Shown piece by piece: positions 57,851-58,624 of a stretch of 64,000 bases of DNA (position 1 is the stretch's first letter; each line of letters starts with the position of its first letter). The notes beneath the pieces were generated by a model. The model did no database searches, had not been told where the DNA came from, and worked only from the letters and a program-made list of their open reading frames with translations. This DNA is from Lachnospiraceae bacterium (GTDB lineage Bacteria; Bacillota; Clostridia; Lachnospirales; Lachnospiraceae): NCBI GenBank assembly GCA_017552985.1, contig JAFZNO010000134.1:116339-180338 (forward strand). Reading direction: 5' to 3'. The translations under genes were made by a program, and so were the position numbers.

Positions 57851-57955
57851 GGTCTCATCCTCCATATCTCACGTAATTTTCTTATAATTTAGTATCCTAC
57901 CATACTTTCCCCCAAAATAAAATAGATAATTTTAATCAAATTACGTAAAAGCTTC

Positions 57956-58149
57956 GTGGCGGGAGGGATTGCCTGCTTGGAAACGGCACGGACAGTACTA
58001 AGCTTCCCAATCGTCTGAATGGAGTGGGAAAAAACGAGATAAACTCGGAGCTACGCTCCTCAGACATATCTCGTTTTTTCCCATTCAGCCGACTGGCTCA
58101 CTAAGTACTGCCGGCTAATTGTTTCCAAGCAGGCAATCCCTCCCGCCAC
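57956..58149 (+). repeat. Giant hairpin element 1 (194 bp; conserved sense = plus)
   Basis: A perfect 29-bp outer stem (57956-57984 with 58121-58149). Inside it lie a basal internal loop with GGCACGGACAGTACTAAGC on the left (57985-58003) and CTAAGTACTGCCGGCTAATT on the right (58101-58120). A middle helix CTGAAT/ATTCAG, a one-sided GGAGT bulge (58021-58025) and a perfect 15-bp inner helix (58026-58040 with 58068-58082) follow. The apical loop is AAACTC-hairpin-TCAGACAT with GGAGC-TAC-GCTCC at the tip. Together with element 2 it shows conserved loops with compensating helices. No coding capacity. It lies 105 bp upstream of leuC, antisense to it. Confidence 0.9.
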
Positions 58150-58232
58150 TTACGTTACGCATAATTTTACATTATATGATTTTTTATAGTTGCAGATCAT
58201 ATGGTTTGTAAGTTTCAGTATAAAATAATCGA

Positions 58233-58291
58233 GTTTCAGCGTTTAAAAGATTAGCAAATCAGATTTCAACATTAAAAGACGATTAGCAAAT
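58233..58291. repeat. Two imperfect ~28-bp direct repeats between the giant hairpins
   Basis: GTTTCAGCGTTTAAAAGATT then AGCAAAT (58233-58259) recurs as ATTTCAACATTAAAAGACGA then TTAGCAAAT (58263-58291). A weaker partial copy starts at 58211. The rest of 58150-58372 is AT-rich with no gene I can support. Confidence 0.55.
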
Positions 58292-58372
58292 TAATCCGTT
58301 TGATTTCTTTCAACTGATTCGGTTTTATTGTATAGAGTCCCTAATTTAATTCTTGGCTTGGCGGGGGCTCGA

Positions 58373-58577
58373 GGGGAAGGTGGGCGGGGCCTGCTCCTTG
58401 GGAAACAATTAGCCGGCAGTACTTAGCGAGTCAGCCTTCCGGATGGAAAATTTTGAGAAATGTCTGAGGAGCTTTAGCTCCGAGTTTTTCTCAAAATTTT
58501 CCACTCCATCCGAAAGGTTGAGGAGCTTAGTACTGTCCGTGCCGTTTCCCAAGGAGCAGGCCCCGCCCACCTTCCCC
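58373..58577 (-). repeat. Giant hairpin element 2 (205 bp; conserved sense = minus)
   Basis: A perfect 34-bp outer stem (58373-58406 with 58544-58577), in opposite orientation to element 1. Read on the minus strand, it repeats the basal loop strands of element 1, the GGAGT bulge and the AAACTC/TCAGACAT apical loop almost without change. The outer, middle and inner helices have different sequences and lengths, and every inner-helix change is matched on the other side. The short frame at 58409-58594 across it is spurious. Confidence 0.9.
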
Positions 58578-58596
58578 GAGTCCTGCTTAACCACGT

Positions 58597-58624
58597 AAAA
58601 AGGGCCGGCATTTCATGCCGGCCC
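58597..58624 (-). terminator. Intrinsic terminator after ilvC
   Basis: Minus strand: perfect 10-bp stem GGGCCGGCAT / ATGCCGGCCC with a 3-base loop, followed by TTTTT. It should stop ilv transcription before the giant hairpin region. Confidence 0.92.

Follow-up and report, generated by a model that had tools for sequence, protein, structure and literature searches.

The two giant hairpins in the ilvC-leuC gap of the DNA stretch analyzed here (64,000 nt of a Lachnospiraceae genome; hereafter the window) are members of one unnamed, dispersed, intergenic repeat family, whose palindromic elements of ~190–230 nt lie between genes in some Lachnospiraceae. Comparison of the copies supports selection on their core for a folded single strand, and the outer arms are likely subject to templated arm-to-arm correction. 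The reading that we favor, and hold to be somewhat more probable than its alternatives taken together, is that of a MITE- or REPIN-like mobile hairpin that would be read by a putative trans-acting enzyme and whose arms would be kept matched by template switching.

Two giant hairpins lie in the ilvC-leuC gap

The genes flanking the gap, presumed to be ilvC and leuC as in the initial annotation, are both transcribed leftwards. The gap contains element 1 (57956–58149) and element 2 (58373–58577). The initial annotation had described two self-complementary elements in opposite orientation at these places, and recomputation of their arms reproduced both outer stems exactly: 57956–57984 is the perfect reverse complement of 58121–58149 (29 bp), and 58373–58406 that of 58544–58577 (34 bp). 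The near-identity of the loop strands, the one-sided GGAGT bulge and the tip in the two oppositely oriented elements was also confirmed. When perfect arms of ≥12 bp spaced 60–220 nt apart were searched for, none was found in the window minus bases 57901–58600, and the longest perfect arm in 20 first-order Markov windows of equal length was 14 bp. The folding energy of 57900–58620 was −335.5 kcal/mol, compared with −193.2 ± 7.6 kcal/mol in 20 shuffles (z = −18.7). The features of the gap are as follows; a strand is given where one is assigned, R1 denotes the covariance model introduced below, and a window coordinate equals the position in the host genome (G000:C32) minus 116338.

57956–57984: element 1 left outer arm, 29 bp, perfect partner at 58121–58149
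57981–58124, minus strand: element 1 core, R1 match G000:C32:174319-174462:-; the modelled strand is the window minus strand
57985–58003: element 1 conserved core strand GGCACGGACAGTACTAAGC, one side of an asymmetric internal loop
58004–58097 (approximate limits): element 1 middle and inner helices, GGAGT bulge and tip AAACTCGGAGC..CTCAGACAT
58098–58121: element 1 conserved core strand TCACTAAGTACTGCCGGCTAATTG
58121–58149: element 1 right outer arm, 29 bp
58150–58157: foot TTACGTTA, immediately outside the element 1 arm
58158–58372: AT-rich spacer separating elements 1 and 2
58373–58406: element 2 outer arm, 34 bp, perfect partner at 58544–58577
58403–58547, plus strand: element 2 core (AAACAATTAGCCGGCAGTACTTAGCG ... 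AGCTTAGTACTGTCCGTGCCGTTT), R1 match G000:C32:174741-174885:+; the modelled strand is the window plus strand
58544–58577: element 2 outer arm, 34 bp
58602–58624, minus strand: terminator-like hairpin with a T run, 3' of ilvC; element 2 starts 24 bp beyond it

The GGCACGGACAGTACTAAGC strand of element 1 carries one side of a fixed A·A mismatch (U·U on the modelled strand). At the foot, GCACTTACGTTA or a near form was seen in many copies of the family.

The hairpins belong to a repeat family of some Lachnospiraceae

A DNA-level search returned 20 matches in the host genome, some of which are half or reverse hits to the same place, and two core-strand patterns matched 14 and 15 sites (0–1 mismatch); the host carries about 15 copies in total (14–16 sites). 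Pattern CTAAGNNCNGCCGGCTAATTG was found in 64 stretches of named genome records, every title being Lachnospiraceae or Acetatifactor, and in 2 of the 397 genomes of the family sample. At 0–1 mismatch the core was present in 5 of 101 genus genomes, the rest having it at 2 mismatches only or not at all. Buk of the four non-host carriers was 94–99% identical to host Buk and other full-length matches were ≤88% identical, so the carriers form one clade. The core was not matched in G475, a probable member of this clade (95% identity over a 155-residue Buk fragment; 79% complete). MC2017, NK4A144, CAMVTN and G380 are among a second set of carriers.

Covariance model R1, the E-values of which are rough, was built from 31 elements. 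It matched 15 of 22 genome handles, or 12 of 19 once three pairs with identical coordinates, apparently the same genomes, had been merged; G427, among the 12, had one weak match only. Match numbers per genome were 21 in G407, 15 in G495, 27 in G496, 23 in G497 and 28 in G498, the highest number being 28 matches within 2.3 Mb. When R1 was run on 392 genomes from the order, 10 were matched, belonging to 7 genera, all of one family. The covariance-model search proposed in the initial annotation thus returned many further copies in several genera, with covarying stems. The Rfam search proposed alongside it gave no match above the gathering threshold, either for the window or for ten related loci. 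A permissive Rfam scan of the pair produced 16 matches, among them microRNA, snoRNA and, within the spacer, a purine riboswitch; every one scored below threshold and was discarded. No family with this hairpin layout was found in Rfam or described among the papers listed by the full-text searches made, and the initial annotation likewise knew of none.

Unpaired letters of the core are fixed while its stems are rewritten

We tabulated 75 elements by script, omitting six sites without a recognizable 5' core. From the outside in, an element begins with a foot, frequently TTACGTGC, and a variable arm, and continues with GGAA and CGGC[A/T]CGGAC-N-GCACTAAGCTCAC, a middle helix, the one-sided GGAGT bulge in many copies, an inner helix, and the tip; the opposite side ends with GTTCGCTAAGTGC-N-GCCGGCTAATTG, followed by the matching arm and often GCACTTACGTTA. 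When the 44 elements of the long type were aligned, 95% of cells were paired in a structure that was derived from, and is therefore favored by, this same alignment. Two-sided changes were seen at 41 of 59 pairs, and the loops and the tip stayed fixed. The covariation score was 0.595, compared with 0.187 in shuffles (0 of 500 attained the observed score) and ≤0.142 when slid. Forty-five columns were invariant, unpaired columns among them, and a T·T mismatch was present in 44 of 44 elements. Since the unpaired letters are fixed and the stems are rewritten in matched pairs, the folded shape, not the sequence, seems to be kept.

Fourteen divergent elements from other genera had different stems and the same layout. 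The tip, ACUGUYUGAGC-stem-GCGAGUU, was exact in 10 of these 14 (that of G812 has one extra T and the three elements of G079 lack it), a conservation that is partly circular because R1, by which the divergent elements were found, contains the tip. These observations support selection on the core for a folded single strand. The initial annotation had suggested selection on a fold for the hairpins as a whole; for the core this is upheld by the 44 elements, the fixed loops and the layout in other genera, whereas for the arms templated correction is likely (see below).

Strand preference is suggestive of RNA in one helix

A fold kept in this manner could be that of a new class of structured non-coding RNA, made of the modelled strand (5'-GGAACAATTAGCCGGCAGCACTTAGCGAAC ... 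GAGCTTAGTGCTGTCCGAGCCGTTCC-3') at many loci and acting in trans. We regard this as unlikely, though it fares best among the alternatives to a mobile hairpin. Fixed unpaired letters, covarying stems and the recurrence of the layout in other genera are all consistent with such an RNA, as are tandem GA steps in the tip, present in 10 of the 14 divergent copies. RNA energies were lower for the strand opposite the modelled one in only 19 of 76 elements (36 of 76 with DNA parameters). Among predicted pairs of the middle helix, G·U exceeded A·C on the modelled strand by 51 to 4 (30 to 4 when each locus contributes a single copy), a count that is not proof because the pairs were predicted on that same strand. 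The excess shrank to 65 versus 25 over the whole diagonal (columns 44–62) and to 15 versus 6 cases when counted per column and clade (columns split by clade); strand-neutral pairing of whole elements, in which the fixed loop mismatches are counted, gave 154 versus 163, and no wobble bias was found in the arms or the inner helix. Wobble as proof of RNA is weakened by these recounts, and the bias on the modelled strand, in the middle helix only, is no more than suggestive.

Further observations count against such an RNA. Promoter-like matches beside the window pair, one of them in the spacer, showed no excess over shuffles; visual comparison of 13 pairs revealed no fixed sequence upstream of the foot; and there is no orientation rule relative to genes. 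The RNA reading put forward in the initial annotation thus retains the selection on a fold, but the random orientation, the core flips described below and the missing promoter excess speak against it. Mobile DNA appears at least as likely as functional RNA, although the bias of the RNA energies to one strand counts against a purely DNA reading, which needs none.

Copies lie between co-directional genes in either orientation

Genes were called by simple scripts, so that the gene contexts of the elements are approximate. Of 76 elements examined (L112 and L153 are apparently the same element), 59 could be classified, the others being too close to an end (14) or too distant from genes (3). Forty-nine of the 59 lay between co-directional genes, with the modelled strand running along the genes in 24 and against them in 25, i.e., without a preferred orientation; 6 were flanked by convergent genes and 4 by divergent ones, two of the latter being miscalls at ptb-buk. 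Seventy-two of the 76 were free of called frames of ≥100 aa and 4 were spanned by an open frame. The neighbor genes varied; recurring families were explained by orthology, with two possible exceptions (glycosidase-like L003/L075/L115/L119, and L060/L076 from one assembly). Among the loci examined, no copy held an internal gene and no neighbor family was common to the loci.

Orthologous loci, defined by shared neighbors at ≥55% identity, allowed the elements to be followed between species. The core was inverted in at least one species at 8 of 17 orthologous single-element loci; the ilvC-leuC pair, an eighteenth locus, was left out of this count because its two copies mirror each other. At the ptb-buk gap, G000, G407 and G414 carry an element and L103 carries it inverted, whereas the gap is empty in G472 and G441. 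Among the matches listed for six genomes, all 14 close pairs (starts <1.2 kb apart), which make up 8 loci by flank likeness judged by eye, were divergent; close pairs are nevertheless not always so, since the two full copies in L118 share one orientation.

These data bear on a cis-acting role. An oriented hairpin that acts in the mRNA between co-transcribed genes, by processing, stability or attenuation, would suit the 49 of 59 copies with co-directional neighbors, where a giant hairpin should affect the mRNA, and it has precedents in ERIC and NEMIS, proposed as mRNA-acting hairpins in PMC2229807. The ERIC effect, however, depends on orientation (same source), unlike the random orientation and the flips between orthologues seen here, and G472 and G441 lack the copy at ptb-buk. 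We therefore consider a cis-acting mRNA element improbable.

Many copies occupy the same loci in the host, JAILLF and CAMKQH, and recent movement is accordingly not seen among these. In G261, three copies have common arms and different flanks. Short forms such as L063, L066 and L098 are without the inner hairpin; the left flank of L063 is that of the full copy L079, with the junction at CTAAG repeats.

Several loci showed further peculiarities. Minisatellite-like arrays of arm-like sequence lie beside L013, L018, L060, L072, L088, L091 and L114, inverted on two sides; the tandem arrays beside L114 and L013 resemble arm sequence by eye. In the close pair at L271 (G496:C26), the outer arm of element 1 resembles that of element 2 and not its own partner, a sequence pattern that looks as if two elements had recombined. 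The contigs at L003 (start of G000:C109) and L007 (end of G000:C121) end at what is possibly one element, with the core opposite, which may reflect a break in the assembly or a palindrome that flips. G414 and G472 have a different hairpin (CGGGATTGCTACGTGCTTCGCACTCTCGCAATCCCG and a close form; L183 at about 1340-1480 and L182 at about 300-440) between those flanks that contain an element in L060 and in G441, and this site seems to attract hairpins. The JAILLF assembly (L076, L060) has two loci with similar 210-aa neighbors, presumably upp, and different elements, and may for this reason be a mixed MAG.

Paired changes in the outer arms can come in blocks

Hardly any two copies have the same outer arms, the conserved part being internal. 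We compared arms within 19 groups that are orthologous or probably so; some groups were set by eye (e.g., L003/L064/L119 and L012/L097), and the pairwise comparisons overlap. In 837 of the 1185 gap-free arm columns the pair was unchanged; a single change had occurred in 175, a double change with pairing retained in 117 (about 12 expected under independent change, by arithmetic from the totals), and 56 were unpaired in both. Changes can occur as blocks on both arms, such as CC to AT from L015 to L105. The arms of L078 and L093 differed by 13 double and 0 single changes, those of L012 and L097 by 0 double and 4 single, and some pairs by mostly single changes. Arm mismatches included 62 G·T versus 69 A·C, and other counts gave 34/40, 31/22 and 39/28; no clear strand-specific wobble preference was seen across the four counts. 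Because the arms change in blocks and without strand-specific wobble, arm copying fits better than compensatory selection on RNA, and templated arm-to-arm correction is likely, judging from the sequence patterns.

Arm-to-arm correction had been named as the alternative in the initial annotation. It fits the outer arms best but leaves the core unexplained: the mismatched loops stay fixed though correction would erase them, which argues for selection on the core. That the elements are old palindromes kept by arm-to-arm correction alone, with no function and no mobility, is the least likely reading and very improbable, for the joint block changes and the lack of wobble preference in the arms agree with it, but many columns of the mismatched loops and bulge that correction would erase are invariant in the 44 elements, and the layout recurs in other genera.

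Relation to known mobile hairpins and candidate partner enzymes

The mobile-hairpin reading can be compared with several described systems. According to PMC8266576 and PMC3116915, REPs and REPINs are intergenic, palindromic and arranged as inverse doublets, with a spacer that shows compensatory changes, and the E. coli REP stem has a mismatch bulge needed by the transposase. The hairpin family resembles these REP/BIME/REPIN-RAYT systems in being intergenic, palindromic, bulged and present as inverse doublets. It differs in the size of its units (~200 nt versus 20–50 for REP) and in its foot: the GTAG of REPs was not seen by eye, many copies reading AACGTAAGTGC, with TTACGTGC and GCACTTACGTTA as common feet. 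By analogy, REPINs would be the closest model, with membership failing. ERIC/IRU, RUP, Correia/NEMIS, YPAL and RPE are multi-copy MITEs of ~100–200 bp with a long stem-loop (PMC2229807). The hairpin family is likewise small, multi-copy, intergenic and non-coding with a long stem-loop, but its terminal inverted repeats are not conserved and only short feet recur. Inspection by eye revealed no constant target-site duplication; in G472 and G441, the empty sites are too diverged for such an alignment by eye.

Two more distant systems also rely on folded hairpins. Integron attC sites are folded single strands that are recognized by their structure; they have extrahelical bases and their stems vary. 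The likeness lies in a strand that would be read by its fold with variable stems; the attC R boxes (RYYYAAC / GTTRRRY) were not seen by eye at the hairpin feet. Fungal mitochondrial double-hairpin elements are mobile hairpins with compensatory stem changes; they reside in another genome compartment.

Candidate partner enzymes were sought in the carriers. Of 10 core-bearing genomes tested, PF01797 (Y1/REP transposase) matched in G407, G441, G380, G496 and G497 and had no match in G000 (the host, 98.5% complete), G414, G472, G495 and G498; it also matched in 4 of 8 genomes without the core, one of the four being G427 with its single weak R1 match. Identity with REP/RAYT, to which the inverse doublets and bulges are alike, was rejected because PF01797 was without a match in the host and four other core-bearing genomes. 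Neither the neighbors nor PF01797 in the five negative genomes yielded a gene mobilizing the family.

An orthologous reverse transcriptase (RT), of PADLOC class RT_UG26, was present in 5 of 6 core-bearing clade genomes (not G472), and the seven core-less genomes tested showed either no RVT_1 match or RTs of other kinds. Across the genus, UG26 RT occurred in 24 of 101 genomes, 4 core-bearing and 20 without the core at 0–1 mismatch, and R1 had no match in the RT loci. The link to the hairpins was therefore rejected, given the 20 core-less genomes, the absence in G472 and the lack of an R1 match nearby. G380 had no RVT_1 match, and G496 and G497 had one each, with an F/YADD motif, which we take to be group-II-intron-like. 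Separately, a strongly conserved non-coding block was noticed upstream of the single-copy UG26 RT (L283:2388-2620, minus strand; also in L284–L287). It is closed in all five by CAGGAAGAGAA and TCTCTTCCTG, its inner hairpin changes in a matched way between species, and by these features it is a likely RNA partner of the RT.

For the mobile hairpin that we favor, the following course can be envisaged. One strand would fold as single-stranded DNA during replication, or as RNA, and a putative trans-acting enzyme would recognize it through the unpaired letters and would have carried copies to new sites, an activity that for the host clade would lie mainly in the past. The outer arms would be kept matched by DNA synthesis switching from arm to arm, a copying that we infer from the patterns of change; such switching could also explain the arm-like tandem arrays, the deletions at CTAAG repeats and the core flips. 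Selection on the recognized core would remove copies that lose their loops.

The tip motif and the significance of the family

The exact core was found in 0 stretches of viral contigs. The tip motif was found there in 27 stretches at 28 sites, compared with 34 sites for the reversed motif, so that most viral tip sites are probably due to chance. The tip stood on a long hairpin (≥32 flank pairs, a cut chosen afterwards) at 7 of 28 sites and at none of the 34 reversed-motif sites; when all viral sites were compared by rank, p was 0.55, only the strong-hairpin tail differing. R1 matched L329, which has two tips (E = 0.001 and 0.028), and L346 (E = 0.004). The phage and plasmid collections searched had no match for element 2 or the L329 hairpin. 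The tip may reach beyond Lachnospiraceae, and we offer this as a lead only.

A broader proposal, which we make tentatively and think less likely to hold than to fail, is that strand-specific folded elements defined by a shape and a fixed tip (ACUGUYUGAGC-stem-GCGAGUU), with single-stranded DNA or RNA as the replicating or acting unit, form a previously undescribed class. The hairpin family itself presents a ~200-nt fold with fixed unpaired letters and most stems rewritten, and has members in seven sampled genera. Fold selection and arm-to-arm copying look alike in covariation searches for RNA, and the many natural variants of one fold can therefore help to separate them. If a trans-acting enzyme reads the fold, the family would be a new shape-directed mobile system; if the elements act as RNA, they would be a new multi-copy RNA class.
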